Below are positions 10,879 to 61,913 of a stretch of 64,000 nucleotides of DNA, piece by piece (positions within the stretch are counted from its first letter, which is position 1; the number at the start of each line of letters is the position of its first letter). The stretch covers positions 63,436,454 through 63,500,453 of the forward strand of contig CM056742.1 of the NCBI GenBank assembly GCA_029851415.1. Direction: 5' to 3'. The DNA comes from Eretmocerus hayati (taxonomy: Eukaryota; Arthropoda; Insecta; Hymenoptera; Aphelinidae). A program made the position numbers and the translations under genes. The notes under the pieces were generated by a model, which did not search any database, was not told where the DNA came from, and saw only the letters and a list, made by a program, of their open reading frames with translations.

Positions 10879-10887
10879 AATCTCCGC

Positions 10888-11460: not shown

Positions 11461-11497
11461 TTGAGCTGCTCGTCGCCTGAGGTTGCCGGCGAGCAGT

Positions 11498-12539: not shown

Positions 12540-12559
12540 GTCTTTCTGTTCATCTTTCG

Positions 12560-32541: not shown

Positions 32542-33132
32542 CTAAGGATACTCTCCAAAAATTCCAGTCAATAATATTTTCATCAAATGATTCCGCAGTA
32601 TTATTTCATCAGTACAATAATTCCTCAATGACGGATCCCTACCAAAACAGATTGTTACTGCGTATGCTGTCACTAAGAGACCGCAAGAACTATAATCAAT
32701 CTGTTCTTGCACCTTCTTGAATACTACGAAATCATCTTCTAGTGAAGGATACCTTTTTTTTATGAAATCCCTTTCTTTATCATCCAAATCTTTCAAACTG
32801 TGAATGTCACAATACAGGCTGTCATAAATGAATAGAAATGGTGCTTTATAATGTAAGCACCTCCAATGCTTGAAATCATTCGAGTAGAGAATTTGGATAT
32901 CTTCTTAATAAGTTTCATCAATCATTCCACTTAACTGTGTCAATACCGTGTCTATAGGATCGAAATTGAGATAATTTTTTTTTAGAACCTTCAGAAATGC
33001 ATTGATTGATTCATCTCGTAACCATGATCCAGAACATAATATATTCTTTCGAATTTCATTAAACTGACTTTCTGTAATATCAATTCTTGAACATCCATGA
33101 TCCTTCATTTGTCTTTGATCTTCATCTTAATA
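32542..33132 (-). pseudogene. Ulp1/C48-like cysteine protease remnant, copy 1
   Basis: Two same-frame segments (33108-32905, then 32904-32542) separated by one in-frame TAA. The first has WLRDESINAFLKVL, typical of the start of Ulp1-like domains. The second has FKHWRCLHY (His), FIYDSLY (Asp) and QIDYSSCGLLVTAYA (Gln and Cys), the ordered catalytic residues of C48 proteases, then an R-x-H-L ending. Just upstream (around 33133) TTCTTTTTGTTATTAAG in minus sense looks like a 3' splice site. The domain occurs both in deSUMOylating enzymes and in proteins of many DNA transposons. Here it is probably a transposon-associated remnant. Confidence 0.7.
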
Positions 33133-33292
33133 ACAAAAAGAATATGTCGGTTTACAAACATATGGGTTAGAGATGACTATTCTCAGTTGTAAATAACATT
33201 CGAATTGAAAACCAATTAATCATGGTGATTATATTGGGAAGGAAATGAACGGCTTTCTACAAATTAGTTATTTGAAGAATAAATTACGGGGT

Positions 33293-33661
33293 TTAAATTT
33301 TAATTTCCAGTAGGTGGGACAGAGTGATAGGAATGTAAAGGTCTTTATTCATTTCCATTGATGCGAGAATTCGATTGATGATAGAGAATTTTGGTAAATA
33401 GGTGATTACATTGGGGAAGGAACAAATCAACTGTCGGTGAACTTGAAAATTGGAACAAAGTGTATCATTTGGAACGCAAAATTTCGAGATCGATTCGACG
33501 AAATCTTTCGAGACTTTGTACATGTATTTTGGAGACTGTGGTGATGATGCCAGTGAATTTTGAGCATGATCGGATGGATACTTTTTGACTTGTGAATTTT
33601 TTAATGAGAAATTTGAAATTTTTCGGAAAGAAGCAAATCTTATAAGTGATTTGTACTTCAT
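33293..33661 (-). CDS. Unrecognised 122-codon reading frame
   Basis: Starts MKYKSLIRFASFRK, Ser/Lys-rich, no domain recognised. It could be an upstream exon of the Ulp1-like gene, since it has the same strand and lies about 160 bp away, or chance. It is unchanged in the duplicate at 57348-57716, but the duplication is too young for that to mean much. Confidence 0.3.
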   Translation of the reverse strand: MKYKSLIRFASFRKISNFSLKNSQVKKYPSDHAQNSLASSPQSPKYMYKVSKDFVESISKFCVPNDTLCSNFQVHRQLICSFPNVITYLPKFSIINRILASMEMNKDLYIPITLSHLLEIKI

Positions 33662-33694
33662 TTTACTTCATGAAAAAAATGTAAAGGAAGTAAT

Positions 33695-33870
33695 TCAGAT
33701 GTTTCTCGACGTACTGAATCGATTGGTTGATACGGAATTCTGATAAATTGTGATTATAATGGTTTTCTAGCGCAACGGAAGAGAGGTATGTAAAAGATAG
33801 GATAAAATGAGCTCCAATCGAAATTCCGTATTAACCAATCGATTTAGCACGCCGAGAAACACGTAAATCA
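33695..33870. repeat. Inverted repeat (foldback) element
   Basis: GTTTCTCGACGTACTGAATC near 33700 pairs with GATTTAGCACGCCGAGAAAC near 33850, and the next ~25 bases inward (ATCGATTGGTTGATACGGAATT / AATTCCGTATTAACCAATCGAT) also pair. The ATTGGTTGATA word also occurs in copies A and B of the foldback repeat near 17660 and 18610, so these may be relatives. Confidence 0.65.
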
Positions 33871-34350
33871 ACAGCCTCAGATTTTTTGAGGAAGAAGGAG
33901 AGAATATTTTTAGTTTTTAAGATGAAAAAAAATTACAAATAAATGAAGAAAAATTCATAAGTATAAAAGTAATCATCGGGGGGCACTTAAAATCTAGCAT
34001 TCCCATCTAGAGATGCCTCCAAACATGGCATAAAAATTTCAGGATGATCGATCAAACCAGTGAGGAGTTTTGCTGAGCGATAGAAAACAACATACATACA
34101 TACACACACACAGACACGGACAGAGGGCTCGAAAGACGGGGCTGTAGTAATTTTGTGAGGGCTTATAACGAAAAACTGTTACCTACATTCAATAGATCTT
34201 GGCGAAAGGAAGAGGACTGTACCGATTTCATGTGTTCAAGAGGTTCACTGGAGGAGAAAAAAATTTTTTTAGAAAAAATTTGACGAAAATTCCGCTGGCA
34301 CCAAATGAATGCTTCCTCTTTTGAGAAAGCAAAAGAGGGAGAGAGAGGGA
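33871..34350. other. No recognised feature
   Basis: AT-rich sequence with a short (CATA)/(CA)-rich patch near 34090-34120. It ends in a GA tract at 34336-34352, where E2 is joined. Confidence 0.5.
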
Positions 34351-34738
34351 GAATGAACGAATGAATGAATGAATAACCTTCATTCGCCCAAGGGCAAAAT
34401 ACAAAAATACAGTAGCATATGAACATATGTCACTCTTACATAATGAATACATTACATTCCTAAAAAATTGTCATTTTGGTCAAGGCTATTAGAATTATCA
34501 CAGAAAGTGCCTAGCCGTCTTGAGGCATCGTAAGATGCATAAAAGTCATGGAAAAGAAAAAGAAGAAAAAGTCACGTTTTCATATACATCAGTCTTCACA
34601 AGGAAGATTGAGGGAAAAGAAACATTCTCACGTTTGGGAAGACATATGAAAAATACATGTGCCCACAGAAATATCACAGGAGTCCCAGTTTGGGAACGAG
34701 GAAGCCACGCATAATTTTTCTGAAGTAGAAATTATCAA

Positions 34739-37664
34739 TCAAAACGGGCTCATGCTTATCACAGTTTGAAGCTCAAAATAATGTCTTTTCTCTACATCAA
34801 TCCTCTGGGAAGATTGTGTTAAGAGGAAGTCTTTTAGAGACTCTTTAAATAATGATATCTTCCCAAGCTGCCGAAAGCCCGGAGGAAGGAAGTTCCACAA
34901 GTGAACACATTGGACCTGGAAAGATCTTCTTCCATATTCAAGTCTCATGTTGGGAACTGTGAGTACCCGCTCTTCTAAATCACCCCGTGCGGGGCGTTCG
35001 GATTGGTACCTGGTAAACATCAGAGCTAGGTAGCCAGGTTCTCCTAAGTGCATGATTTTATGGATCAAGAGAGCTGCGAAGTACATTCTCCGCGAATCTG
35101 TACGTAACCAACCCAAACGGTCCCTAAACGGGGTGATGTGCTCGTCTCCCCTAAGATCAGAAATATATCTCACACATGAATTGCTTAGTCTCTGTATCCG
35201 TTGCCGCTGTTCGTCCGTGGCATCGAGGTACACGACCGTGCAATAATCTAAGTGCGGTTGAACTATTGACTCGACTAGGCGAACTCGGAGAGGTCTGGTG
35301 GAACATGCTCTAAGAAACCGCAGACCGTATAGGGCTCTGTTGACTTTCTTAATCAGTTGGTTAATGTGCGGTTTCCACGTCAATTCACTATCAAATGGAA
35401 CACTAAGACTCACGACCGTATCACTGAACGGGATGAACTTTCCCTCCTGTGTCTCAATCCCTGGCATGTCCATTTTCTTCAGATCTTTGATATTTTTCTC
35501 TGAACTGAAGTAGATTGCCTTGGTCTTGCCAGCGTTGAGACACAGGCCGGAACTTCTGGCCCATTCGGCAACTAGTCGTCCTATTTCGCCCAGCAATGCC
35601 TTCCCTGATCTTATTTTTCTCGATTTGGAAATGAATTTGGAGGTCATCCGCATGGAATAGATGATGTACCGACTTTCCGTCTAGCGAACCAGCCAAGTCA
35701 TTCACATACAAGCTGAAGAGGAGAGGCCAAAGGACGAACCCCTGTGGAACACCCAGATTGGTTACGAGCCAATCAGATTTGCCTACATTAGAAGTAATTT
35801 GTTGGGTGCGACCCTGTTAATATGATTTTATCCACAGGAGTGCCGAACTTAAGAAGCCAAGATGTCGTAGCTTCCTCAACAGCTTGGATGGTGAGATTGT
35901 GTCAAAAGCTTCATTAAAATCGAATTGTAGGAGCAGAGTGATCTTCTTCCTGCCAATACCTACTCTGATGTCGTCGGTCAATTTCAATAAAGCTGTCTGG
36001 GTGCTATGGCGTTGCCTGAAACCAGTCTGGAAGCGATCAAGTATCTTTTCGTTCTTCAGAAACTCCGTGATTTGGTCGTGTGCAATTTTATCCAGAACCT
36101 TTGAGAGGAAACACAGCAGCGCTATAGGACGGAAGTCCAAGACCGTTGATGGAGTGGCAGTCTTCTTTAATGCGATCAGCTGCGCTTGCTTCCAAGCCTC
36201 GGGAAAAATGCCATGAGCGAAAGAGGAGTTAAAAATATGTACTATAAGATCACCAATAGCCGGAAGCGCTTTCGCGATCACGCTTTGACGTATCCCATCC
36301 GCTCCACAGGCCTGTGAGGAGAAATGTTTGATAGTAAGGACTACATCGCATAAATTTGTGGGCTCAAATTTGAACCTCTTCTCCAGTGCCGAGTCAATAT
36401 CGTCCATTGCTTCTTTAATATTTTCGTGGGGCAAAATGGAAACCCTCGCAAGGTGTGCCTTCAACTCATCCGGTTCCTCCTCTTTGCTCTTAGGCAAGAG
36501 GCCGAGGTTGCGCATTTCCTTCCAGATGTTCTTCTGTTGATCGAGAGCGTCAGAAAGATGACTTTGAAGAAAGGAGTTACGCTCTCGTTCGATGCGCAAG
36601 TCAACCTCTTCACTGAGCCGGAAGTACTCATTTTGAAGCTCAGGACACTTGCGCTGGTTACGTTGAGTCCGTTCCCAGCACCTGCGCGTCGCGTTTCGCT
36701 TATTCATGAGTACCCGCAGCTCAGGACCAATCCAAGGAGCGTCATTTTTACGTGGATTAATAGTTTTTTGAGGTGCTAATTCATCTATAACGGTCTGTAG
36801 ATTTTCATTCAAGCAGTGAATTACATCTCCCAAACTGGTTTCGGCATTTCCAAGAGCTGTCCCGTCACAGCGAAGCAACCGGTCATTCAATATCTCCGGA
36901 GTGATGTTGCGGAAATCCCTGTAGGTGAAGGAATTTTTTGGCGGAGTGGGAGTGAAGACGTTGATGGTGACGTCAATGACCGAGTGCCTGCCGAAACTGG
37001 GCGAGACTCTGTTTTGGAAGTCAGTAATGATGTCATTGTCATCTACATAAATGTGATCAATCCATGTATGAAATGTATTGGTGGTATGTTGATGAGTCGG
37101 GCCATGCTGCACTATCTGCAAGGCAAGTTCTTCTGTCAGTGCAGTCAGTGTCTTGGTGTCAGGGTGAGCGGTGTCTGACAAATTCTTGTTCAGATCTCCC
37201 ACTATAATTTTATGACTGTAATCTCCACACAGCCGGCGTAACGAGCCAAACAGCCCATCATCCTTCTGCATGGCGAAATTTGGTCTATAGATTGCCACGA
37301 CTAATATTGGGGCTGAGTTGCCTTGCTGTACGCTGCAGAGAAGAAATTCAGGAACGCCAGGTTTCCCTGGCCCAAAAGTATTCGACGAGATCAACATTTC
37401 ATCTTTGAAATCATTGCGCACATACAAGGCAACCCCACCACCCTCTCTGTTGCGATCCTGTCGCAACGATGAAAAACCTGGAATCCGAACGAGACTGTCA
37501 TCCACGTACTCATCTAGCTTCGACTCAGCCACCCCAAATAAATGGTAGGAGGGATCGTTAGCAACGAGCAAGCGTAGATGCTCGATCTTATCTGTTAGGG
37601 AATTAAGGTTGATGAATCCCGCTTTTAGAGAACCACTACTCCCTCGTCGCTCCCCAGCAGCCAT
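34739..37664 (-). pseudogene. E2 ORF2: endonuclease and reverse transcriptase, copy 1
   Basis: Start MAAGERRG. Endonuclease: AGFINLNSLTDKIEHL, LFGVAESKLDE, REGGGVALYVRNDF, IVGDLNKNLSD, TWIDHIYVDD and FGRHSVIDV. RT: QACGADGIRQSV, LIALKKTATPS, DFRPIALLCFLSK, FQTGFRQRHSTQTALL and LLLQFDFNEAFDTISP. An in-frame TAA follows WIKSY (35817-35819). The same frame continues through GVPQGFVLWPLLFSLYVNDL to the catalytic box, which here reads HADD instead of YADD. A shift near 35620 leads to the C-terminal part (GKTKAIYFSSEK, PHLDYCTVVY), ending at 34739. Confidence 0.88.
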
Positions 37665-37669
37665 ATTTA

Positions 37670-37842
37670 GTCAAGGAGTTCTCGCAGGTTCTGCTGCCAA
37701 ATTACCACTCTGCTCCGGTACGGAGGCGCATCTCTGGGTGTTGTTAGAGGATGCACTAGTGCGTTTTCGGATACTTTGACAGGCCATTTGAATGACCTGC
37801 AGATCCGCGAGAGATTCAAACGTATGCGCTCGCTCTCTCACC
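37670..37842 (-). pseudogene. E2 ORF1, C-terminal remnant
   Basis: An open frame reading ERAHTFESLADLQVIQMACQ to a TGA just before the ORF2 start. It has no domain. It is called ORF1 because of its position and because the open frame runs up to the truncation point at the GA tract. Confidence 0.5.
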
Positions 37843-38957
37843 AGAGAGAGAGAGAGAGATTGATTGATTGATTGATAAAGAATTTATTCATGCCTAGGTC
37901 ATGGAAGACTGTAAGGCAAATTGTATTTACATGGTGTAACATTAATGTTTTATACTAAGTAATTTCAGGAATAGTATAAGATCAAATCAGGTACATATTG
38001 AGCATAACAGCATTCCACGAGATGCTCAATAGAATTACATACATTGCAACTTTGACATGAATTTTACACGAACATTCAATCGTAACGATCAACACACTCA
38101 ATATTCCATTTCAAGACGAAAATTCATGAACAGTGTTCATAGCGACATTTGGAAACATCGCAGCGCAACTTGCCCAATAAATCGAAGCAGATTCAATAAC
38201 TGGGCCTATTCCCAGATTTGTTCAATTTCATTTCCTTCGAGATGTGACATCAAAGTAGATTTGAACGAATCCAAGGGCACTCTAATACGGATGCTCAACA
38301 CCCGAGTGGATATATACACATACACATGTATAGCTGAGTATTACTAGATATTCCGATTATACGCAGATTACAGAGAACATGTTTTGCCGTGAGGGTTTCT
38401 GAAAGTAATAGATAGCAATTTCACAATTTGGAGTTTGATAATTCAGAAAAATGCTAAGTGGTAGTAATAATATTCAGATGAGTAAATGGATAAGTTGATC
38501 AATGAAAAATGAATATATAAATGAATGCTCAGACATCTGGTGTCACATTTCAAAGTATCTCAGATCTCGTTTAGAAGTTCTGTTAGTAACCACGTCTTTG
38601 TAATGGGGTTCAGCTTTAGCCCGTCTCGCAATGCTCTATCCCGTCAATTCTGGGCCTGATCGTGGATCAAGATTCCACAAATTTTATTCTTGAAGCCCTG
38701 TTAGTGTTTCAAGTCAAAAACTGTCTCAGGTGCCTTAGCGTTAATAAAAGCGGATGCAGTGATGTGAAAAGATTCCTCCATACTTTTGGTACGCGGCGTT
38801 GTGTATAGCAAGGGCCCAGGGGTATTTCTGCTCGAAGTACGTAAATTAGGAGCATCAAATCTGAGTCGGAAAAGTTTGGCTAGGTATGTGGGCTATTTTG
38901 CCGATATGATGTTGAAACCTAGCGATGACAGTAGATACATTCGACGATGCTCTACGG

Positions 38958-39030
38958 AGAGCCAACCTATGGGTTGGCTCTGTCACGCCCTACCGCTTAG
39001 CTTTATAGAGCTAAGCGGTAGGGCGTGACA
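38958..39030. repeat. Two adjoining perfect hairpins at the end of E3 RT
   Basis: Hairpin 1 is AGAGCCAACC (38958-38967) with GGTTGGCTCT (38972-38981), a 10-bp stem. Hairpin 2 is a 22-bp perfect stem, 38981-39002 with 39009-39030, and a 6-base loop TTATAG. The right arm of hairpin 2 is RT coding sequence (minus sense ...PVTPYRLA), and the left arm is its inverted copy. Preserved at 63013-63085. Confidence 0.9.
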
Positions 39031-40821
39031 GGTGCTGTCCAAGGTATGCTTCCATACACAAACCGAACACATGCGTTCTTGAGTCGATGGAGTTTGAGGT
39101 TTAGTTCATCTGAGACGTCATTATAGACAGCGCAGGCGTAGTCGAAGTAGGGAAAGATGAGAGTCCCAACAAGACGCTGTTTTAATTTTTGATTCGAGGA
39201 TTTTTTGTGGGAGCGCAAAGTGTAGAGGGATCCATGCACACGGCTGCTTATCGAATTCATATGTTTTTTCCAACTGAGGTTGGACTGAAGTTGTACTCCA
39301 AGGTCAAATAATTGATTTAATGGAGTAATGTTGGTTCCGTTGATGATCAGGGGTGGGAGATTCGGTAGCTCAATAGGGCGTAGGAATGCAGAACTGCCAA
39401 GTATGATGAATTTCGTTTCGTCCGAATTGAGTTTAATTGAGTTTTCACAGGCCTACGCGTATACCCGATTTGAGTCCTCGTTTAGCATCTGGATGTGTTC
39501 ATCAGGTGGTTGCCATTGGAGATAGATTCGGGTATCGTCTGCATAGATCCCATGCTTGGTGAAGCGAAGGACTTTTGGAAGGTCATTAATGAATATGGTG
39601 AAGAGTAGGGGGCCCAAGACACTGTCCTGTGGAACCCCTGCAAAGGTTTCCGTGGTTTTTGAGGAAGCGCCATCTTCACCTCGAACAACTTGTCGTCTCC
39701 CTGATAGGTAGCTTGCAAACCATTTGATGACTGTATCTGAATAGTTCAGTGAGCATACGTTGATCTACAACACGGCGAAGCTCTTCAGTGAATCCTAAGA
39801 GTGCAGTTTGAGTTGAGTGATATGATTGAAATCCAGATTGATGCTCATTAAGTAGGCTATGACTTGCTGAATTTTGAGCTAACTGTTTATGCACGGTACG
39901 CTCGCGAAGTTTTGAGATTTCAGATAAGAGTGCAATGGGGCGAGTCTCCGAGGGAGAGGAAGGAGGGTGACATTTCGCGAGAGGGATGATGGTTGCGATT
40001 TTCCAACAGTCTGGAAACTCTCCAGATTTCACTGACGAGTTGAAAAGTTCAATCAAGTGGGGTCAAATTATTGGGTAGGCTATTTTGAGCATATTTGTGC
40101 TGATCAGGTCCGAGCCAAAACAATTTTTAGTGGCCTTTGCTAGGGCTCCATCAACGTCAACACCGGCGATGGGTTTAAATTCAGAAGAATCTGGGATTTC
40201 ATTTTTCAAAAGAGTTTTCAGTAAATCAGACACGTCTTTAGGCTCAAATGCTGGGGTTTGACAGGATATAGCGGCAAAATGACAGTTGAGAGCATCAGAA
40301 GGAACGTAACACAGTGGCGATGGAGACTTTGGTATAGTGTCCCATACTTCCAAGTTGCCTCCAGAGAGTCTTAGGATCAGTCGATTCATCAAGCATGGAC
40401 GAGAGATAGTCATTTTTGGCAGCGTCTAGTTTGTTACTTACAACTCTCCGAAAGTCGCGATACGACGAGATATCAGAAGATTTACCATATGTTCTAGCTC
40501 GCCTGTAAGCAGCATCTCTCGTAGCCATGACTGGCCGCATATCGGCTGAGACCCACGGTTTTGACTCGAGCAACGTGATCAAAGCTCTATATTAAGATAT
40601 TTGATAGAGACTGGTCATGAAGTGAGGCATGAGAGCACAAAGAAGAAGCCAATTCAGTACAAGCTTTCGTTCGATTCAGTCTCAGTTGAAGATCAGCATG
40701 AAGATTATTTTTGTTTAGATTCTCCAGATTTCGAGTTGTGATGGTTTTCGGTTGTGTTGCGAGTGACGGGAGTTTGAATTCGAGTGAGATTAGGTCATGG
40801 CCTGCAGCAAAAGGCACGTCG
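39003..40821 (-). pseudogene. E3 ORF2: reverse transcriptase part
   Basis: Several short stretches in shifting frames give RT motifs: DLISLEFKLPS (end of endonuclease), [80 protein letters not shown], the YADD box ([10 protein letters not shown]) and PYFDYACAV. At least four frameshifts or stops are present. The end is replaced by a hairpin (38981-39030). Confidence 0.82.
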
Positions 40822-41160
40822 CACTATACTTGTGGGGACTCAAGAGTGCCGGATAATCCGCTTCACTCGAATTCATGAGCTATCTAGATGAAACAAAATG
40901 GATTTTCTTCGCAATTCCCTAAGCTACAAGATGTGCTTACCTGTTTTTTACTTAAATGCGAAAGGTCGGAGGGGGGAGGAGTTGAATGGAAAAAAATATA
41001 TTAACACGGATTTTACCGAAAAATGAACTTGGGATGTCCGGGGCATGAGTCCCACTGCCACCTGGGGAACACTCGATAGACATTCTTTGCGCGCATACCT
41101 AGAGTTTCAGCTCAACCCCGGGTCCGGGAACGAGTGCTGGGATCTCTGAGGATGAATTTT
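40822..41160 (+). repeat. Outer inverted repeat, left
   Basis: Nonrepetitive ~340-bp end segment, mirrored at about 48870-49208 with roughly 95% identity by eye. Contains CACTATA at its edge and no obvious second recombination-signal-like element. Confidence 0.88.
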
Positions 41161-43090
41161 CGTCATGATGGAGTGCCAAAATGTAGGAATTTCACCAAAA
41201 TCACGGTTTCGAGGTAGTTTGCGGTTCTGCTGCCATGTTGAGAATACTTGTGGTGTATTACGTCATTGACTAACAAGATTTTGAGCTCAATCCCACGTCT
41301 AGGAATTGGTGCTGACAGCTTTGAGATCTATTATCAGCTCGAACTGTCCCTTGGGCACTGCCAACATCGCTATATGACAGTTTCTAGGTAGGATTTTGAT
41401 GAGCTGCCGAGTCGGAAACGGTTTAGTCATATTCTGGATATGGTTAACAGAATTTCAAGCCCAACCCCGATGCAAGGAATTGGTGCCAGAAATTTCTAGA
41501 TCGATTTTATGAAAAAATTGACCCTATTTCGGTACGAATCTGATTGAAGATGATTCATTTTTGACGAGATTTTGACTTGCTGCCGAATTTGCGAAGATTC
41601 TATCACATTTTGATTTGGATGAACGAATTTTCTAACTCAATCCCGAGTCTTGGAATACGTGCTGGGATCCTGGACACCAACTTTCGTTCATAATCGAATG
41701 CCAAACTGTGAGAATTTCACCGAAATCATGGTTTTGAGGTAGTTTGCGGTTCTGCTGCCATCTTGAGAATACTTGTGGTGTATTACGTCATTGACTAACA
41801 AGATTTTGAGCTCAATCCCATATCTAGGGATTGGTGCTGACAGCTTTGAGATCTACTATTAGCTCGAACTGTCCTTGGAGCACTGCCAACATCGCTATAT
41901 GGCAGTTTCTAGGTAGGATTTTGATATGCTGCCAAGTCGGAAACGGTTTAGTCATATTCTGGATATGGTTGACAGAAGTTCAAGCCCAACCCCGATGCAA
42001 GGAATTGGTGCCAGGAATTTCTAGATCGATTTTATGAAAAAATTGACCCTATTTCGGTACGAATCTGATTGGAGATGATTCATTCTTGACGAGATTCTGA
42101 CTTGCTGCCGAATTTGCGAAGATTCTATCACATTTCGATTTGGATGAACGAATTTTCTAACTCAATCCCGAGTCTTAGAATACGTGCTGGGATCCTGGAC
42201 ACCAACTTTTGTTCATAATCGAATGCCAAACTGTGAGAATTTCACCAAAATCACGGTTTTGAGGTGGTTTGCGGTTCTGCTGCCATGTTGAGAATACTTG
42301 TGGTGTATTACGTCATTGACTAACAAGATTTTAAGCTCAATCCCATGTCTAGGGATTGGTGCTGACAGCTTTGAGATCTATGATTAGCTCGAACTGTCCC
42401 TTGGGCACTGCCAACATCGCTAAATGACAGTTTCTAGGTAGGATTTTGATATGCTGCCAAGTCGGAAACGGTTTAGTCATATTCTGGATGGTTGACAGAA
42501 GTTCAAGCCCAACCCCGATGCAAGGAATTGGTGCCAGAAATTTCTAGATCGATTTTATGAGAAAATTGACCCTACTTCGGTACGAATCTGATTGAAGATG
42601 ATTCATTTCTGACGAGATTTTGACTTGCTGCCGAATTTGCGAAGATTCTATCACATTTCGATTTGGATGAACGAATTTTCTAACTCAATCCGGAGTCTTG
42701 GAATACGTGCTGGGATCCTGGACACCAACTTTTGTTCATAATCGAATGCCAAACTGTGAGAATTTCACCAAAATCACGGTTTTGAGGTAGTTTGCGGTTC
42801 TGCTGCCATCTTGAGAAAACTTGTGGTGTATTACGTCATTGACTAACAAGATTTTAAGCTCAATCCCACGTCTAGGAATTGGTGCTGCCAGCTTTGAGAT
42901 CTATGATTAGCTCGAACTGTCCCTTGGGCACTGCCAACATCGCTAAATGACAGTTTCTAGGTAGGATTATGATATGCTGCCAAGTCGGAAACAGTTTCGT
43001 CATATTCTGGAAATTGTAAGCAGAAGTTCAAGCCCAACCCCGATGCAAGGAATTGGTGCCAGGAATTTCTAGATCAAGTTTAGGCGAGAA
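41161..43090 (+). repeat. Left arm outer array, ~525-bp higher-order repeats
   Basis: The word GAATTTCACC starts at 41187, 41712, 42237 and 42760, giving periods of 525, 525 and 523. Each unit holds three related ~175-bp monomers, recognisable by a conserved TGCTGCC followed by about 35 bases of (A/T)-rich sequence and a CCCGATG- or CCCGAGT-type word. The right arm has only two such units (48309 and 48833 in reverse). Confidence 0.85.
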
Positions 43091-46080
43091 TTGACACGGG
43101 TTCGGTCGAAATTCGATTGAAAATGCCTGATTCTAGATAAGAATTCCATATGCTGCCAACTTGCAAACTATTCTATGACCTTCTAGAATGAGTGAGCTCC
43201 ATTTTAACCTGAATCTCGATTCTGGGGATCGGTGCCAAGAAATCTAAGATTCATTCTAAGCGGAAATTCACACGAGTTCGGTTGAAATTCGATTGGAAAT
43301 GCCCGATTTCAGATGATAATTCGATATGCTGCCAACTTAAAAACTATTACATGACATCCTGGGATGAGTAAACTACATTTTGAGCTAAATTTCGATCCTG
43401 GATATCGTTGCCAGGGGATCGCGCATGCACTCCATGCAAAATTTGACGCGACTTTGATTGAAAAATTATTGGAGATGCTGGATTCTAAATGAGATTCCGA
43501 TAAGCTGCCAACTAAGGAACTATTTCATAACATTCTGGGATGAGTGAGCAACATTTTGAAGTGAATCCCGATTCCGGAATCGAGTGCCAAGAAATCTGAG
43601 ACGCAATTCATGCAAAATTTGACGCGACTTCGATTAAAAAATTATTGGAAATGCTGGATTATAGATGATATTCCGATATGCTGCCAACTTAGAAACTACT
43701 TCATAACATTCTGGGATGAGTGAGCTATATTTTGAACTGTATCTCCATCCCGGAGTCTGGTGCCAAGAAATCTAAAACGCGATCCATGCAAAATTTGACA
43801 CGATTTCGATTCAAACATGATCAAGAATGGGGGATTCTAGATGAGATTCCGACATGCTGCCAACTGGAGAACTATCCCAGAACATTCTGGGATGAGTGAG
43901 CTACATTTTGAACTGAATCTCTATCACGGAATCTGGTGCCAAGGAATTTGAGACGCGATTCATGCCAAAATTTGACACGATTTCGATTCAAATATGATTG
44001 AAAATGGTGGATTCTCGATAAGATTCCAATATGCTGCCAACTTAGGAACATAACATTCTGGGATGAGTGAGCAACATTTTGAAGTGAATCCCGATTCCGG
44101 AATCGGGTGCCAAGAAATCTGAGACGCGATTCGTGCAAAATTTGACACGATTTCGATTTAAATGTGATTGTAAATGGTGGATTCTAGATAAGATTTTGAT
44201 ATGCTGCCAACTTAGAAACTATTCCATAACATTCTGAGATGAGTGAGCTACATTTTGAAGTGAATCCCGATTACGGAATCGGGTGCCAAGAAATCTGAGA
44301 CGCGATTCGTGCAAAATTTGACACGATTTCGATTTGAATGTGTTTGTAAATGGTGGATTCTAGATAAGATTTCGATATGCTGCCAACTTAGAAACTATTC
44401 CATAACATTTTGAGATGAGTGAGCTACATTTTGAACTGAATCCCCATTCCGGAATCGGGTGCCAAGAAATCTGAGCCGCGATTCTTCCAAAATTTGACGC
44501 GACTTCGATTAGGAAATTTTCGAAAATGCTGGATGCTAGACGAGTATCCGATATGCTGCCAAATTAGAAACTATTCCATAACATTCTTGGATGAGTGAGC
44601 CACATTTTGAACTGAACTCCGATTCCGGAATCGGGTGCCAAGGCATCTGAGACGCGATTCATGCAAATTTTGACGCGACTTCGATTAAGAAATTGTTGGA
44701 AATGCTGGATTCTAGATGAGATCCCGATATGCTGCCAACTTAGTATCTATTTCATAACATTCTGGGATGAGTGAGCAACATTTTGAACTGAATCTCTATC
44801 ACGGAATCTGGCGCCAAGAAATTTGAGACGCGATTTATGCCAAAATTTGACACGATTTCGATTTAATTATGATTGAAAATGTTGGATTCTAGATGAGATT
44901 TTGATATGCTGTGAACTTAGAAACTATTCCATAACATTCTGGGATGAGTGAGCTACATTTTGAACTGAATTCCGATTCCGGAATCGGGTGCCAAGGCATC
45001 TGAGACGCGATTCATGCGAAATTTGACGCGACTTCGATCCAAAAATTATTGAAAATGACGGATTCTAGATGAGATCCCGATATGCTGCCAACTTAGAAAC
45101 TATTCCATAACATTCTTGGATGAGTGAGTTGCATTTTGAACTAAATCTCTATCACGGAATCTAGTGCCAAGGAATTTGAGACGCGGTTCATGCCAAAATT
45201 TCACACGATTTCGATCCAAATATCATTGAAAATGGTGGATTGTAGATGAGATTTTGATATGCTGCCGACTTAGAAACTGTTCCATAACATCCTGGGATGA
45301 GTGAGCAACATTTTGGAGTGAATCCCGATTCCGGAATCGGGTGCCAAGAAATCTGAGACGCCCTTCGTGCAAAATTTGACACGATTTCGATCTATATACG
45401 ATTGTAAATGGTGGAATCCAGATGAGATTACGATATGCTGCCAACTTAGAATCTATTTCATTCTATGCTGTGATGAGTAAGCGATATTTTGAACCGGGTC
45501 TCCATCCCGGAATCTGGTGCTAAGAAATTTAAGACGCGATTCATGCAAAATTTGACACGACTTCGATGTGAGAATTATTGAAAATGCTAGATTTTGGATG
45601 AGATTCCGATATACTGTCAACTTAGGAACTGTTCCATTTGATATCGTGATGAGTGAGCAATATTTTGAACTGAATGTCGATTATGGGGATAGGGCTGAAA
45701 ATTATCACATGTATATTATGAGAAAATATAGATAAGCTCAGTCCAAATCCGGTTGGAAACGCTTGATCCAAGCTCGATATGCTGCCCAAACTATCATATG
45801 ACATTCTGTGTAGGGTGAGCTACATTTTCAGCTGAAATCCCATATGGAAATTGGTGCCAGATAATCCCGGATTCATCCTTCTTGATGAATGACATAATAT
45901 CAGTTAAGATATGATCGAGATTGTTCCGCTCTAGATCGGAATCAGGTATGCTGACAACTTGAAAACCATCTCACGACAACCTGGGACAAGTGAGCCCAAT
46001 TCGGAGCCTAATCTCGATCCTCGGAATCCGTGCAAAAAAAATTTTAAACCAATGTTTAGCGAAAAATCACATGAGATCCG
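43091..46080 (+). repeat. Left arm inner array, ~176-bp monomers
   Basis: About 16 monomers, each with GATATGCTGCCAACTTAGAAACTATT-like, GGGATGAGTGAGC, CGGAATCGGGTGCCAAG and TTTGACACGATTTCGAT-like blocks in that order (quoted in parts). The spacing of TGCTGCC is about 176 bp. Adjacent monomers differ by perhaps 10-20%. Mirrored by about seven monomers at 46650-47940. Confidence 0.85.
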
Positions 46081-46600
46081 TTCAAATCTGATCGAAAATG
46101 TTACTGTTAGATTTGTGTTCTATTTGCTGGAAACTAAAAAATAGTCCGTTCAGTCTCTCTGATGAATGAACAAGATCAGAATTATGAGGGAACATGCATA
46201 TTTCACAACTCGGGTTCCTCCTTATTCCCAGTTTCACTTTAATAAATCCCAGTCCGTGAACAGTTATGTACAAAAGAGATAAGATGCGCCAACATAAAGT
46301 ACTATGTTACAAATGGATGACTAACGTCCGATTTTCTATCCTTCGATTCCTAATAGTACTTCATTCTTGGCGCTTCTCATCTCTCTTTTACATAACTATT
46401 CACGGACTGGGATATTTGAAAGTGAAACTGGGAATAAGGAGGAACCCGAGTTGTGGAATATGCATGTTCCCTCATAATTTTGATCTCTTTTATTCATCAG
46501 AGAGACTGAACGGACTATTTTTCAGTTTGCAGCAAATAGAACACAAATCTAACAGTAACATTTTCGATCAGATTTGAACGGATCTCATGTGATTTTTCGC
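46081..46600. repeat. Palindrome centre
   Basis: Inverted halves meet near 46333: CCCAGTCCGTGAACAGTTATGT on the left matches ACATAACTATTCACGGACTGGG on the right (shown in part). The loop between AAGTACTAT and ATAGTACTT is only about 40 bp. The centre is noncoding. Confidence 0.85.
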
Positions 46601-48869
46601 TAAAAATTGGTATTAAATTTTTTTGCACGGATTCCGAGGATCAAGATTAGGCTCCAAATTGGGCTAACTTGTCTCAGGTTGTCATGAGATGGTTTCCAAG
46701 TTGTCCGCATACCTGATTCCCATCCAGAGAGGAACAATCTCGATGTTGTCTTAACTGATATCATGTCATTCATCAAGAAGGATGAATCCGGGATTATCTG
46801 GCACCAATTTCCGAATGGGATTCCAGCTAAAAATGTAGCTCACCCCACACAGAATGTCATATGATAGTTTGGGCAGCATATCGATCTTGGATCAAGCGTT
46901 TCCAACCGGATTTGGACTGAGCTTATCTATATTTTCTCATAATATACATGTGATAATTTTCAGCCCTATCCCCATAATCGACATTCAGTTCAAAATATTG
47001 CTCACTCATCACGATATTAAATGGAACAGTTCCTAAGTTGACAGTATATCGGAATCTCATCCAAAATCTAGCATTTTCAATAATTCTCAAATCGAAGTCG
47101 TGTCAAATTTTGCATGAATCGCGTCTTAAATTTCTTAGCACCAGATTCCGGGATGGAGACCCGGGTCAAAATGTAGCTCACTCATCCCAAAATGTTATGG
47201 AATAGTTTTTAAGTTGGCAGCATATCGGAATCTCATCTAGAATCCACCATTCTTGATCATGTTTGAATCGAGATCGTGTCAAATTTTGCATGATTCGCGT
47301 CTCAGATTTCTTGGCACCAGACTTCGGGATGGAGATACAGTTCAAAATATAGCTCACTCATCCCAGAATGTTATGAAGTAGTTTCTAAGTTGGCAGCATA
47401 TCGGAATATCATCTAGAATCCAGCATTTCCAATAATTGTTTAATCGAAGTCGCGTCAAATTTTGCAAGAATCGCGTCTCAGATTTCTTGGCACCCGATTT
47501 CGAAATCGGAATTCACTTCAAAATGTTGCTCACTCATCCCAGAATGTTATGAAATAGTTCCTCAGTTGGCAGCATATCGGAATCTCATTCAGAATCCAGC
47601 ATTTTCAATAATCTTTCAATCAAAGTCGCGTCAAATTTTGCGTGGAGTGCATGCGCGATCCCCTGGCACCGATATCCAGGATTGGAATTTAGCTCAAAAT
47701 GTAGTTTACTCATCCCAGGATGTCATGTAATAGTTTTTAAGTTGGCAGCATATCGAATCTTCATCTGGAATCGGGCATTTCCAATCGAGTTTCGACCGAA
47801 CTCGTGTAAATTTCCGCTTAGAATGAATCTTAGATTTCTTGGCACCGATCCCCAGAATCGAGATTCAGCTTGAAATGGAGCTGACTCATTTCAGAAGGTC
47901 ATAGAATAGTTTGCAAGTTGGCAGCATATGGAATTCTTATCTAGAATCAGGCATTTTTGATCGAATTCCGACCGAACTCGTGTCAATTCTCGCATAAAAT
48001 TGATATGGAAATCTCTGTAACCAATTCCTTGCATCGGGGTTAGGCTCGAAAGTTTGCTCACCATCTTCAGGATATGACTAAACCGTTTCCGACTTGGCAG
48101 CATATCAAAATCCTACCTAGATACTGCTATATAGCGATGTTGGCAGTGCTCAAAGAACAGTTCGAGCTAATAGTAGATCTCAAAGCTGTCAGCACCAATC
48201 CCTAGACATGGGATTGAGCTTAGAATCTTGTTAGTCAATGACGTAATACACCACAAGTATTCTCAACATGGCAGCAGAACCGCAAACTACCTCAAAACCG
48301 TGATTTTGGTGAAATTCTCACAGTTTGGCATTCGATTATGAACAAAAGTTGGTGTCCAGGATCCCAGCACGTATTCCAAGACTCGGGATTGAGTTAGAAA
48401 ATTCGTTCATCCAAATCAAAATGTGATAGAATCTTCGCAAATTCGGCAGCAAGTCAAAATCTCGTCAAAAATGAATCATCTTCAATGAGATTCGTACCGA
48501 AATAGGGTCAATTTTTCCATAAAATCGATCTAGAAATTTCTGGCACCAATTCCTTGCATCGGGGTTGGGCTTGAAATTCTGTTAACCATATCCAGAATAT
48601 GACTAAACCGTTTCCGACTTGGCAGCATATCAAAATCCTACCTAGAAACTGTCATATAGCGATGTTGGCAGTGCCCAAGGGACAGTTCGAGCTAATAATA
48701 GATCTCAAAGCTGTCAGCACCAATTCCTAGACGTGGGATTGAGCTTAAAATCTTGTTAGTCAATGACGTAATACACCACAAGTATTCTCAACATGGCAGC
48801 AGAACCGCAAACTACCTCAAAACCGTGATTTTGGTGAAATTCCTACATTTTGGCACTCCATTATGACGA
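46601..48869 (-). repeat. Right arm arrays (inner ~176-bp and outer ~525-bp repeats)
   Basis: Reverse-complement relatives of the left-arm arrays, with fewer units: about seven inner monomers and two higher-order outer units, against about 16 and four on the left. Confidence 0.85.
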
Positions 48870-49208
48870 AAATTCATCCTCAGAGATCCCAGCACTTGTT
48901 CCCGGACCTGGGGTTGGGCTGAAACTCTAGGTATGCGCGCGAAGAATGTCTATCGAGTGTTTCCCAGGTGGCAGTAGGACTCATGCCCCGGACACCCCAA
49001 GTTCATTTTTCGGTAATATCCGTGTTAATATTTTTTTTTTCCATTCAACTCCTCCCCCCTCCATCCTTTCGCATTTAAGTAAAAAACAGGTAGGCACATC
49101 TTGTAGCTTAGGAAATTACGAAGAAAATCCATTTTGTTCCATCTCGATAGCTCATGAATTGGAGTGAAGCGGATTATCCGGCACTCTTGAGTCCCCACAA
49201 GTATAGTG
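48870..49208 (-). repeat. Outer inverted repeat, right
   Basis: Mirror of 40822-41160; ends CAAGTATAGTG beside CGTCG. Confidence 0.88.
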
Positions 49209-49850
49209 CGTCGGTTTTACAGTAAGAGCGGACGAATCTCAACGAGGGAACGATTAAAAGGTCGAGCCAGATGTCACTCCGGAAGTAATCAACGTGAAGA
49301 AGGTGGTGCATCGGTTCCGACGGTACAAGTTCTAAACTATGTGCAAGAAGGAGATCTCGGAAGTAGTTAGAGTCTTGGTGATCTTGATGCATCGGAAAGT
49401 TGAAATCTCCAGTTATAATGAAATTGGGGTATTGTGGCGTATGTTGGGCGATGGCTGCAAACAGCGCAGTTTGATATGCCGCATTTGGATACGCTTCATT
49501 TGACTTCAACGAACATGTATTCTGGCGTATTATCAAACTGTGGATCAGAGCAGGCTATGATTCTAGATTGGTAGCAGTTCTTTACGTAGAGACCTACTCC
49601 TCCTCCACTTTTACGAGCACGATCATGATGAAGGAAATCAAAACCGTCTAGTGCAAAATTGGAAGTAGATTCATCCAGTTCAATTAAAGTTTCACTTAAG
49701 GCAATGGCGTCAAGTGAGCCATGAGAGGTTGAAAAGTATTCAAGATCATTGAAAAGCGCCGGTAGACGGTTAATGTTGCTGTGGCAGAGAGTAAAGTGGC
49801 GCTTTGATTTTGGGTTACTTGTCTGAGCAGATTTTTTTCAGATATATTGT
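49209..49850 (-). pseudogene. E3 ORF2: APE-type endonuclease part
   Basis: Readable motifs include NFIITGDFNFPMHQDHQD (the GDFN box), HHLLHVDYFRSDIWLDLLIV and SYCKTDA, in at least two frames, with upstream fragments around 49560-49850 matching the N-terminal endonuclease. The palindromic element cuts it just after YCKTD. Confidence 0.75.
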
Positions 49851-50787
49851 GGAGACTGCTGTTGTTGAGAATTTTGGAACTGTTGATGTTGGGAAGAATG
49901 TGGGTGACTGGGTGGAAAATGAGGTGACTGCGTTCGAGGAGTAAGCTGAAAGTGATTTGAAGAAGTGAGGTTAGGTTGCTGTGAAAATTGACGTATTAGG
50001 AAGGCGTTATAGTTTTGTTGTTGAGTTGTGAGGAGCATGGTATTACTCGAAGTGTGTTGGGATGAATTTGAGAATGACTGGCCTGGGATATGATTTGCGT
50101 GTGGCTGATACTGTTAAGGGGGCATTTGACCCTGGCCAGGGGCGGTTGCAGCGTGGTTTAGATTTTGATGCTGTGGAGGATTCCGAGCTTCAAGATTCAT
50201 CAGATCTGCAATGGAGTGGATTGGAATGGGGCGCGAGTCACGGTCTGGTCGCATGCAGACGATGAGTTTTCTAACAGTGGGGTGGAAGTGATTGAGCTCT
50301 TCGGATTCAATGTACGCTTCCCGAAGTGGCTCATAGGTAGGACGCGGCCAGAGAGGCGTAACACATACTTTTGTCCTTCACTTTCATTAAAAATTGACTG
50401 CGTGGTATAACTCTTCAAACGATTTGCTCTAGCCATCATCTCATTACGCACTGATGGTGAAATAAGCTTAACTACTGCTGAAAAGGAATATCTCTGTTGG
50501 GAATTATGAGATTGTGGAGCGGACTGAGTGCTGGTGTTGGAGGGCATGGGCCACAATCGGATTGATGTAATGAACTTCAAGTAGTCTTGAGCATTCATGG
50601 CATTTTGAATAGCTAGTGAAGTGTTATTAGAATGATTTAATGGAATACCTGAGACGCGCAGTTCACACGAGTCAGTAAGCAGATTGTTTGAGGTCATATG
50701 ATTCAATGTTTTACGAACTTCAGCTAGTTCTGTTTGGATCCTGTGATCAGCTTTAGCAACTGAGGATTCGAGTACGTCTAGACGATC

Positions 50788-50788
<1 letters not shown>

Positions 50789-50863
<75 letters not shown>

Positions 50864-50873
50864 TTGAAGCGCG
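50789..50873. repeat. (GA)n microsatellite inside E3 ORF1
   Basis: About 80 bp of nearly pure GA. It may be an expansion within ORF1 or the scar of a deletion or insertion. Confidence 0.9.
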
Positions 50874-51059
50874 AGTCCACAGACTGTTCAAATGGCAAAG
50901 AGTGTGTTTTGTGCCAATCGGCAAACTATGTTGGCATCTCACTCATGTTTGCTGGATCCGTGCACGATACTTTAGATGCACGTGAGTCTGATGGTGAAGG
51001 GGGGGGGGTCGAGTTGATCAGGGAGACGCTTGCGGTTTTGTGATGGGGTTACCTCTGAG

Positions 51060-51993: not shown

Positions 51994-52022
51994 AGAGAGA
52001 GAGAGAGAGAGCGCGCTCGACA

Positions 52023-52889
52023 TCAACGCCCAATCTGCCCGAGCAGAACGAGCCGTGGAAGGAAGTGGTGTCGAAAAAGAACGCGAACAGGGTGAAGGAG
52101 AGAGGTAGAACAAATGGCACCGCTGGGAAGAAAGCGAAGATGAAGCCAAAACGGGTGAAGCCCGAAGCCGTCCTCGTCACGGCCAACAAAGGTGGGCCAG
52201 CCTACGCAGACATGCTGCGCAGGATGGAAACGGATGACCTCGATGAATAAGTGGGCCCTAAGGTCACGGGCATCCGCAAGACCCAAGTCCTTCTTGAACT
52301 CAAGAAGGGCACCGATGTCGCCACCGTCAAGGCAGCCTTGGCACCAGTCGTCGGGCAAGAAGGAGCTGTCCACTGTCTAGCAAACAGCACGACCCTCGAG
52401 GTGCTCGGAGTCGACTACGATGTCGACATAATCAAGGTGCGGGATGACCTCGCGAAGGCCCTACCAGAAAACAAGAAGGGTGCCGTTGTAGTCAAGTCCA
52501 TCCGGAGTGGCTACCGCGGCACCCAAACCGCTGTTGTCTCGATCGCAACGGGACTGGCCCACCATCTCCTCGACTGGAAGGAGCCAAAGGTTGGATGGGG
52601 CAGAGTCAGGATCCGCGAGAAGGGTGGCATCCCACGGTGCTATAACTGCTTAGAGTACGGCCACAAGGCCTCGGAGTGCAAAAAAGAGAAGGCAGAGGAA
52701 CGGAAACCAAAACTCTGCTTCCAATGCGGCGAACCAGGGCACCTTGCTGCGATTTGCAAGGAAAAACCAAAATGCCTAAGCTGTGCGGCGATCGAGTCCA
52801 AATCTGACCACAGATCTGGGGCCAGCAACTGCACTGCATACCAGAGGGCAAGAACCACATATAGACGCAGGAAGGAAAGAAATGGCTAG
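52023..52889 (+). pseudogene. R1-like ORF1 (gag), hybrid copy
   Basis: In-frame TAA after TDDLDE (about 52248-52250). The downstream part is identical in plan to copy X, with the three CCHC knuckles intact. Near the join it reads KTQVLLELKK where copy X has KTQEGQVILELKK. Its stop overlaps the ORF2 start, as in copy X. Confidence 0.85.
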
Positions 52890-55881
52890 CTTCATCCAAG
52901 CCAACCTCAGGAAGAGCGGGGACGCAGACGATCTCCTACACACTGTTGCCAAAGAAGGAGGGATCGATGTTCTGATTATCTCCGGACCGCCTCGGAAGCG
53001 CGAATTCTCTCGATCCACATTCGATCACTGGAGGACAGCCGTAATCCAGATCATGAATCCTGCGATCCGTGAGACTGGACCAGCTGTTAGTGGCCGCGGT
53101 TTCGCTCGAAAGACCATAAAGGGCACAGCAGTCTACAGCTGCTACTATTCGCCGTCGCTCAAGACGCACGAATTCGAAGACGAGCTCCACGACCAAGAAG
53201 AGGATGTGAGGCAATGGGGGGGGGGGGGCAGTTATAATCGCGGGGGATTTCAACTCCAAGGCAGGGCAGTCAAGCGTGGTAGAGTCCTTCCCCTCAAGCC
53301 CCTCCAGTCATGTGTAGAGAGCGCGCCGCGGCGTCGCAAGGGAGGGGCTCCTTCGCCGCGAGCCGCGACGCTCTCTGCACTTGACTGGAGGGGCTTGAGG
53401 GGAGGGACTCTACTACGCTTGACACCCCTGGAGCGCGCCGCGGCGTCGCAAGGAAGGGGCTCCTCCGCCGTGAGCCGCGACGCTCTCCGCACTTGACTGG
53501 AGGGGCTTGAGGGGAGGGACTCTACTACGCTTGACAACCCTGCTCCAAGGAACCGACTTGGAGTGGGGGGCCGCGTGATAGACGGGGGGTAATACTCGCT
53601 GATGCCATGAAGGCATTGGGATTAGTGCTCGCGAACGAGACGGGGGTTATCACCTACTACCGACACGACACTCGGTCCAGGGAGGGAGGTTCGTCTTCCG
53701 TCCTCGACCTGACGTTCATGAGCCCGTCGCTCATGGGACGTGTGACATCGTGGGAGGTTCTGGACACGGAAACATTGAGTGACCATCTAGATATTCGGTT
53801 TCGGCTTAGGACTGACAGACAGACGACACGCAGACCGTGACCGACGGGGTGGCAGGTACGCAAGCTGGATGAGGGGAAATTCCGGGAATCGATAGGAACA
53901 GCCGAAGATCTCCCGATGAACATCACCGCGGACGAGGCTGTGGATATGGTGACGACCACCATCACAAGAGCTTGTGACGCATCGATGCCTCGCAAGACAA
54001 CATCATGCTTTTGGAGGAAACCAGAGTACTGGATCACCGACGAGATAAAAGCCCTACGAAGAACGAGCAATAAGGAAAGGAGAACCGCGTGGCGATCAAA
54101 GAAACTAAAACGACCATCACTGGCGGAAGATGATAGGGCGTACAGAGAAGCAAAGAAGGCTCTTGTTCTAGCCATCTGGAGAAGCGAAGAGAAGTGCTGG
54201 GGTGAATTGTGCGACATGGTTAATGGAGACCCGTGGGGTACGCCATACCGCGTGGTCATGTCCAAGGTCCGACCCCGGAGGGGCAACCCAGCACCGACCG
54301 ATGCAGCTACCTTGCGCAGCATCGTGGGAGACCTCCTCCCAGCAGGAGAACCCAGAGTCACATTCCCTCCAGAGAGCGACGACCCCATCCCGCTCTTCAT
54401 TATGCAAGAGCTACTCATAGCGGCGAAGAGGCTGCCGAACGGCAAGGCCCCTGGCCTGGACGGCATCCCAAACGAGGCTCTGAAACTGGTCTTCAAATAC
54501 AAGCCAGATTTACTCCTCGACCTCTTCAACATCTGTCTGAGCGCGGGAAATTTCCCGGATAAGTGGAAACGCCAGAAGCTGGTCCTGATACCTAAAGGGC
54601 AAGGAGGTCAACGCCTTCTCAGCATGCTCGACAATATCGGGAAAATGTACGAGAAGATGGTGCTCAACAGGGTGGAAAAAGCCTACGAAGAGAGCGGCGG
54701 GCTATCAACAATGCAGTTTGGGTTCCGGAAGGGACGAAGCTTTGTGCACGCGATCGAGGAGATCCAAGAACGGGTTCAAGCGTCGGTAGGGAACCCATAC
54801 CAAGGAAGAGGAGGATTCTGTCCCATTATCGCATTGGACATAAAGAACGCGTTCAACTGCGCGAACTGGGAGCGAGTCTATCAATCCCAAGCAAGTAAAG
54901 TGCCGCCCTATCTACTAGCCATCACGAGTGACTATCTGCGGAACAGGACACTCGTGCACGACACCGACAAGAGACAAGAGATCCGGAACCTGTCCGCCGG
55001 AATTGGACAGGGATCGGTTTCCGGGCCGTTCAACTGGAACACCCAGTACGACAGTTTACTGTCTATTGAACTGCCCGAAGGAGTGATAATAGTGGCTTTC
55101 GCGGACGACGCGGGGCTCATCGTCTGGTCCGACAACGAGGAACTCTTGGGTAGACGCGCAAACGAGGCGCTGGCCCGAGTCTACGAGTGCATGATCAGCA
55201 GGCTCCTAGAGCTTGCTGTCAAGAAGTGCGAAGCAATCGTGGTCACAAGACGCAGAAAGTTTGACTTGTCCCACTTTTACATCAACGGGCAAGAGATCCC
55301 ACGCAAGACAGAGCTGAAATACCTCGGCGTATGGCTTGACGACAAGTTGTCGTTCAAAAAGCACATCCAGGAGGCCGCCCAGAAAGCGAGCAGGGTTGGT
55401 GCGGCGCTTCAGCGGCTGATGCCAAATATCGGGGGACCCAAGGAAAAGGGGCGCGCACTTCTCAACACCGTCAGCACCTCCATCATGCTCTACGGTGCAC
55501 CCGTGTGGGGAAAGAGAGTAATGGACGGAACGCACCCACGGAGAGATAGATTACTGGACGACGCAAGCACTGAGTGACCACGGTTGCTTTGGTGCCTATC
55601 TGACCCGGTTCAAGGAGAGGACATCCCCAGCATGCCAGTCATGCAGGGACAGCTGGGATGTCGCTGAACACGCCCTGTTCACGTGCAACGACACACAAAG
55701 AGAATGCGCCGAGTTGGATGGATGGCTGGGTGCTCAACTGTTACCTGAGAACCTCGTCCCGTACTTACTTCGCAACCAGGAGACATGGGATAGAGTTACC
55801 GGATACATCGAGGCGGTGATGACCCGTAAGGAGGAGAAAGAGAGGGAGGTGAGGCGCCTCGACGCCGGTGAATTACAGTAA
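52882..55881 (+). pseudogene. R1-like ORF2, hybrid copy
   Basis: Same endonuclease and RT as copy X, with differences. The G run before AGDFN has 13 bases instead of 12, which shifts the frame before the GDFN motif. The TGA before WQVRKL is present. The 319-bp deletion removes the region after WGKRV. The C-terminal CCHC lacks the TAG found in copy X (Trp codon instead). Confidence 0.87.
53254..53550. mobile_element. hAT-like MITE, copy 2
   Basis: The same insertion as 28880-29176, with the same CTCCAAGG duplication. It was inherited through the segmental duplication and is not an independent event. Confidence 0.85.
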
Positions 55882-56335
55882 ACCTGCCGATTCATACAGA
55901 AGAGGTTCAAATGGTTCCAGGAGGGATATGATGGACTGAAGGAGGAAGGAAGAAGAGAGAAGATCGAAGATCGAAGATCGAAAAAAGAAGAAAGAAGAAA
56001 GAAGAATGACGAGATGGAAGAAGATCGAAGAAAGGGAAACAACACCTGCGAGTCGTGAGAAGAGAGACGCTTGATCCTGAGCGCGAGACGCCACCGGCCC
56101 TGAAGTAATGCTCACGCGGTGCCGGGGCCGGATTGGTAAGTTGGTGGATCTCTCCCTTGTCCAATGGCCGACGTCAACGGAGAAGGAAGAGAGGGTTTAC
56201 CCGGTTCAGATGGCCGTATCGATGCGGATTCCAGCCCGGGACTGTTGGGGAGGTGCTGGCCAGCCGTGTTTGGCTGACCGGTGCCTCTCCTTCGTACGTC
56301 GCAGCGTATTCGCCCTACAACCACCTTGAGAAAAA

Positions 56336-61897: not shown

Positions 61898-61913
61898 AGA
61901 GAGAGAGAGAGAG

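Follow-up and report, generated by a model that had tools for sequence, protein, structure and literature searches.

Transib-type palindromic elements with satellite-array arms in the wasp Eretmocerus hayati

Foldback transposons built from tandem repeats, such as Tetris and Galileo, and satellites derived from transposons are already known. The birth of satellite DNA, its spread and its gain of higher-order units pose an old question, usually addressed once the origin has been lost. Here we describe a family of palindromic elements in the wasp Eretmocerus hayati that is, with high probability, a mobile Transib-type palindrome whose arrays grow, thereby spreading their monomer and seeding satellites. 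It was recognized from a non-autonomous foldback element of 8,387 bp, identified by its ends, its empty site and family copies elsewhere, that lies at 40822..49208 (no strand assigned) of a 64,000-nucleotide stretch of DNA (the window; C2:63436454-63500453 of an assembly of 692,130,109 bases in 17 scaffolds). PacBio HiFi, Illumina and Hi-C data stand behind the assembly (PMC10482854; statements with a PMC number reflect partial texts of the papers cited).

Tetris is a foldback element of Drosophila virilis that, like the window family, is non-autonomous, with long inverted termini divided into outer flanking and inner domains. Its tandem repeats of about 220 bp also occur in long satellite-like arrays of up to 66 copies (PMC4079207). 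Tetris differs in its 8–10-bp target duplications, its assignment to Mutator by its authors and its inverted termini of at most 1.7 kb (PMC4079207), whereas the window family has 5-bp duplications of the Transib type, ~175-bp monomers in three-monomer units and, by sampling, one arm of ~45 kb. E. hayati, in addition, has a transposase-bearing Transib of like layout. Galileo, of the P superfamily, is also foldback-like, with terminal inverted repeats extended by tandem repeats; its longest copy is 9,021 bp with arms of 4.2–4.7 kb (PMC4168063). Galileo differs in having a P-superfamily transposase, and the tandem repeats are those of a single D. willistoni copy (PMC4168063). Monomers, in contrast, cover 81–89% of the element in each of ten complete window-family copies measured.

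A typical Transib has short inverted termini around one gene, whereas the termini of the window family are satellite arrays several kilobases long. The Transib transposase is kin to RAG1, the recombinase of antibody genes. What the window family shares with Transib transposons is the CAC ends, the 5-bp duplication and the CGNCG target, and Transib transposase genes are found in the same genome. CGNCG is the Transib target in moth-virus insertions (PMC4735498), 5-bp duplications are described for Drosophila Transib, where hopper and transib2 favour another target motif (PMC3276498), and Transib and RAG-like ends combine 5-bp duplications with an invariant 5'-CAC (PMC7204232). Partial accounts of Helitrons and Helentrons describe transposons that likewise carry satellite-like arrays through a genome, but there the arrays are central in rolling-circle elements, unlike the mirrored arms of a cut-and-paste element. 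A literature search, which was not exhaustive, returned no Transib-type foldback, no Transib-borne satellite, no higher-order units in such arms and no transposase-bearing Transib with satellite arms. Transib is not named in the main text of PMC10482854 or PMC13116730.

The window element and its insertion site

The original prediction, made from the letters of the window alone, was of a palindrome at 40817..49213 with CACTATA ends and a CGTCG duplication. The palindrome is real and both features are seen: CGTCG at 40817..40821 equals that at 49209..49213 (no strand assigned to either), and the element proper runs between them, from 40822 to 49208. The same 20 bases, CACTATACTTGTGGGGACTC, stand at its two ends without a mismatch and inverted relative to each other, so that both begin with the CAC expected of Transib termini. 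No further site in the window matches this 20-base end when up to three mismatches are allowed (chance expectation 0), and its exact pattern had no match in viral contigs or in the genome contigs collection.

The host sequence is a non-LTR (long terminal repeat) retrotransposon on the minus strand. Its upstream part, with N-terminal frames and the start of an endonuclease-like frame, lies at 49214..50925, and its downstream part at 39006..40816, with the end of that frame followed by broken frames resembling reverse transcriptase. Joining the flanks with one CGTCG restores a single open retrotransposon frame (...RFVRSYCKTDVPFAAGHDLISLEFKLP...). Of the predicted empty site in an endonuclease, the read-through is thereby confirmed, while both enzyme names were given by eye, that of the endonuclease from its likeness to the open reading frame at 24080-24820. 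Pfam gave no match for the endonuclease-like piece, the query protein having 8 wrong residues at its start.

As in foldback elements generally, the inverted termini are very long and repetitive, with little or no unique centre. The left terminal domain (40822..41054, + strand), which starts with CACTATACTTGTGGGGACTC, and its right counterpart (48975..49208, − strand), which ends in TATAGTG, had no monomer match to the profile over ~233 bp; the first monomer begins at base 233–234 in all ten complete copies measured. Next to it, the outer left arm (41055..43150, +) consists of four 525-bp higher-order units, each made of three diverged ~175-bp monomers, and is followed by the inner left arm (43152..46111, +), a simple array of ~176-bp monomers, of which the last three are diverged. 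A palindromic centre of ~438 bp (46112..46548, no strand), with a loop of ~46 bp whose orientation varies among copies, separates it from the right arm (46549..48974, −), whose 14 monomer matches, compared with 29 in the left arm, are in the inverse orientation.

The profile thus found 43 monomers in the element, some partial, with 29 forward and then 14 reverse, and Tandem Repeats Finder (TRF) reported a period of 176 at 43091-45682 (14.7 copies) and 46983-47957 (5.5 copies). The longest stop-to-stop frame inside the element is 113 codons, which agrees with the prediction of inverted ~176-bp arrays that hold no gene. Between the 525-bp units of the outer left arm, 300-base stretches are 86–97% alike; one such stretch, which spills into the inner array, is 61% alike. 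An Rfam scan of the window gave no match.

Matching the two arms yields inverted blocks of 1,485, 1,198, 849 and 850 bp at 90–93% identity, and a global alignment gives 93.9–96.7% per block, save one 10-base block at 90%. The gaps in this alignment (843+205, 523 and 1,058 bases) correspond to about 6, 3 and 6 monomers, and the right arm is ~2.6 kb, or ~15 monomers, shorter than the left. This difference in length, the 525-bp higher-order units and the palindromic centre had escaped the original prediction. Among the 12 right-arm monomers of at least 150 bp (two shorter ones were dropped), 11 pair with a left-arm monomer at 92–99% and the remaining one at 86%, while their best matches within the same arm are at 59–94%. 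Since the right-arm monomers match their left-arm partners best, the arms are copies of each other or are kept alike by exchange.

A dispersed family with arrays of changing length

A genome search with the outer 341 bases of the element, CGTCG included at the start, produced 392 first-look candidate ends. Forty were scored, all at 95–100% identity; 24 of these were read at length, as was the window copy, and the remaining 15 over 100 bases. Fourteen complete elements could be assembled from the ends read, with four ends (L018, L022, L023 and L028) lacking a partner in the sequence read. Identical 5-bp duplications flank 13 of the 14 complete copies (the window copy, L009, L010, L011, L013+14, L015+16, L017, L019, L020, L021+L053, L025, L027+L054 and L024..L026), and ten of the 13 are CGNCG (CGCCG six times, CGTCG and CGACG twice each; TGGCG, TGCCG and CGGCT make up the other three). 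When 30 ends are aligned, each of the first seven columns departs from the consensus in at most one row. The predicted recurrence of the end with GC-rich 5-bp duplications is thereby borne out, and the restored reading frame and the matched duplications together show that the element moved as a unit, inserting at CGNCG-like sites. The movement was presumably catalysed by a Transib transposase acting in trans.

The copies share a common plan. The centre measures 437–446 bp in eight of ten copies and could be aligned in all six for which this was done. As judged by eye in those six, the two sides of L011 and of L019 share one central variant, and in the other four copies each side has its own, a pattern to be expected from conversion between arms. 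The arms of a single copy are 98.9–100% alike in six of ten copies, and identical over the outer 533 bp in L009, with a between-copy mean of 97.6%; L020 was left out of the comparison because an insertion splits its right end. The near-identical arms of single copies are a sign of recent activity of the family. Insertions inside L020, L021 and L022 were checked for a transposase, and their longest frames, of 132, 83 and 101 codons, were not accepted as such. The 7.3-kb stretch beyond the array of L018 has frames that, by eye, resemble an LTR retrotransposon.

Array length changes from copy to copy. The ten complete copies measured have 10 to 33 monomers per arm, and the two arms are not always equal. 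Thirteen of the 14 complete copies are 6.3–12.2 kb long, including foreign insertions in some (L020, L021). The fourteenth, at C3:57403885-57452297, is 48,413 bp long and has CGACG on both sides. By sampling, it consists of a 16-monomer left arm followed by an array of ~44.7 kb (~254 monomers) in the inverse orientation: nine of nine 800-base samples of the array were 94–99% monomer, all in one orientation, and both 10-kb ends of the copy have monomers in the expected orientation. To the extent sampled, this is a long head-to-tail array of one monomer family, as in a satellite, inside a transposable element. The partnerless end L023 was also sampled outward: monomer extends to about C1:120043400, none was present at 120045000, two forward monomers were found at 120047500, and five samples further out were without monomer.

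Length also changes within an insertion. Directly to the right of the window, a tandem segmental duplication contains the window insertion a second time. This second copy is 99.9% identical over 990 bp, comprising 876 bp of flank and the first ~114 bp of the element (L064:1-990), but its left arm is shorter by one 525-bp unit, and ~6 kb of foreign DNA is inserted near base 114 of the element. The segmental duplication itself pairs 27630-39945 with 52012-64000 and runs past the window, with 8,481 bp at 99.7% and 3,520 bp at 98.1%.

The monomer of the window arrays gave 799 first-look candidates genome-wide, of which 40 were scored, with at least 392 matches. Ten monomer clusters away from the 40 scored ends were sampled 5 kb outward. 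Eight end in the element terminus, flanked by CGGCG, CGTCG, CGACG, CGACG, CGGCG, CGGCG, CGGCA and CGGCG, and since they do, most sampled arrays seem to be parts of elements. The other two stop without a terminus within 5 kb. These window-type arrays (L072 and L073) could be truncated elements or free arrays. The prediction that the monomer also forms long arrays elsewhere therefore held in part: the monomer is abundant and the ~44.7-kb array, as sampled, is long, but it lies inside one element.

Transib transposases of E. hayati

The Pfam RAG1 profile had seven sub-threshold matches in the genome (best E 0.345), and the frames were near-identical in the six loci fetched. One of these proteins matched the solved transposase 6pqn, which we take to be that of Helicoverpa Transib, at E 9.2e-96 over 465 residues, with RAG1 chains matching weakly. 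An E. hayati protein is 100% identical to the transposase query over 98% of it, and four further Transib-type proteins of this species were listed (P0023, P0024, P0027 and P0031).

At the gene-bearing copy at C1:43.80 Mb, 6,198 contiguous bases were read (C1:43799502-43805699; L082+L079+L081). The transposase frame, 627 codons from stop to stop, lies between inverted repeats. The left one, of which 1,055 bp was read, is made of 2.0 copies of a 526-base unit (97%) with an internal period of 175 (65%), its thirds being 67–74% alike, where shuffled letters give 58%. The repeat on the right, in the inverse orientation and 99.3% alike to the left, was read for 683 bp, or 1.3 units; both extend beyond the stretch read. 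Because the gene sits between inverted repeats built from such units, a different Transib family of this genome has a like plan with a central transposase. Its monomer showed no detectable kinship with that of the window family by nhmmer (best E 0.11). A candidate kinship between the two monomers, scoring 3.9 bits at best against at most 2.3 in 60 pair-block shuffles, was rejected as too weak. At L075-L078, four of the six loci, the transposase frame is shortened to 328–372 codons and adjoins a 526-base self-match, as if an arm had replaced the start of the gene.

A related autonomous Transib that shares the first ~30 bp of the end had also been expected. Transib transposase genes are indeed present, but the sharing was not found in the one examined, whose outer ends were not reached.

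Origin and growth of the arrays

The testable predictions came out, and the earlier interpretation as a whole is supported. The family has CACTATASTTGTGGGGACTC ends and inserts at CGNCG-like sites, where it makes a 5-bp duplication. Because the copies read share their ends, the start of the array and, mostly, their centre, it probably descends from a single palindromic founder with inverted monomer arrays. From one insertion to another, and also inside an insertion, the arrays lengthen or shorten by whole monomers or 525-bp units, probably through unequal exchange, slippage or conversion between the arms, or alternatively through template switching in the palindrome. Some insertions would reach tens of kilobases and become, in effect, satellite arrays with transposon ends, as in the one case sampled. 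The mirror symmetry may go back to one early inverted duplication, maintained by exchange between the arms, and selection or constraint would act on the ~175-bp period. Since insertions move as units and some grow into arrays, both the spread of the monomer and the seed of a satellite array would come from the transposon.

Several observations weigh against this model. That the 48-kb copy is continuous is judged from samples and from its CGACG flanks, and two independent CGNCG insertions would have matching flanks about one time in four. Copy L012 has unlike flanks, AGACG and CGTCG. Only eight of the 15 further single ends are at CGNCG, as are two of the four partnerless ends (L018 and L028; L022 has CGGTG and L023 TGTCA), and the CGNCG share is biased upward because the query carried CGTCG at its start, a bias without effect on the equality of paired duplications. 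In four of ten copies, including the window copy (96.1%), the arms are no more alike than the arms of different copies. The usual centre is missing from two of ten, L015+16 having 1,037 bp in its place and L010 none, and in L010 the forward and reverse monomers are not cleanly ordered. The Transib end consensus is CACWATG, from which the last base of CACTATA deviates. No transposase gene with window-family ends was found, the arms of the one gene-bearing Transib examined are unrelated, and all seven listed transposase copies are more than 1 Mb away from any of the 40 scored ends. As to L012, the stretch L012:303-7290 looks complete despite its flanks and is possibly a recombinant of two insertions.

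The ends start with CACTA, and the missing transposase would also fit a member of another superfamily. CACTA/EnSpm elements have CACTA ends and make 3-bp duplications. The 5-bp duplications at 13 of 14 copies differ from this, and the frequent CGNCG target is that of Transib, so that a CACTA/EnSpm origin is very improbable. It is harder still to credit that the palindrome is an artefact of assembly. Large palindromes are prone to misassembly and the arms of L009 are identical over their outer 533 bp, but like structures flanked by target duplications are found at independent sites, and the arms of the window copy differ in both sequence and length; these differences and this recurrence, both read from the assembly, answer the worry indirectly. 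The assembly was, moreover, built from HiFi reads (PMC10482854).

A more serious alternative is that a wasp satellite of other origin was captured between Transib ends, with the transposon acting only as its carrier. The dispersal and abundance of the monomer (799 first-look candidates, 40 scored), the terminal 233 bp without a monomer match and the two of ten sampled arrays that had no terminus within 5 kb would be consistent with such a capture. We nevertheless consider it unlikely, as eight of the ten end directly in the terminus, the array junction is at one position in ten of ten copies, and a second Transib family combines this layout with a monomer unrelated to that of the window, a finding that favours growth inside transposons over one lucky capture. 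It is also possible, though we hold it only tentatively, that the monomers were selected as extra transposase-binding sites, a role proposed for the repeats of Galileo and Tetris, and that their satellite appearance is a by-product, an explanation compatible with growth of the arrays inside the transposon. Mirror-image arrays at both ends and the second family of like layout would fit, and the Tetris paper considers a binding-site advantage of this kind for Galileo (PMC4079207). Against it, no motif common to the end and the monomer has been shown, no kinship could be detected between the monomers of the two Transib families, and an array of ~254 monomers seems beyond what binding would need.

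The similar plan found around another Transib transposase points to a rule, not to chance. Taken together, the two families could mean that the Transib lineage of E. hayati, transposase-bearing members included, has made its inverted termini into nucleosome-length satellite arrays with three-monomer units, in at least two families with unrelated monomers of the same ~175-bp length, and that insertions mature to tens of kilobases. We give this wider reading an even chance, because only 2.0 and 1.3 units were read beside the transposase gene. If it is true, higher-order satellites would be born and dispersed by means of a RAG1-related transposase, and a constraint such as nucleosome phasing would account for the shared length of ~175 bp.

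The window family and its 45-kb array may thus show the beginnings and the spread of satellite DNA. A single HiFi assembly seems to contain the stages together: copies with shorter arms, medium ones, a ~45-kb array that target duplications still enclose, and a duplicated insertion whose two copies differ by the gain or loss of one 525-bp unit. This makes the birth model directly testable, in a superfamily related to RAG1.

Two other features of the window may be mentioned. An LTR retrotransposon lies at 3418-5139 (−) together with 6017-12563 (−), in which an envelope-like frame (Pfam Baculo_F, E 1.7e-37) adjoins frames for reverse transcriptase, RNase H and integrase. Each copy of the duplicated segment also holds a 112-bp GC-rich direct repeat (95%), at 28945-29168 and at 53319-53542, next to frames of non-LTR retrotransposons.

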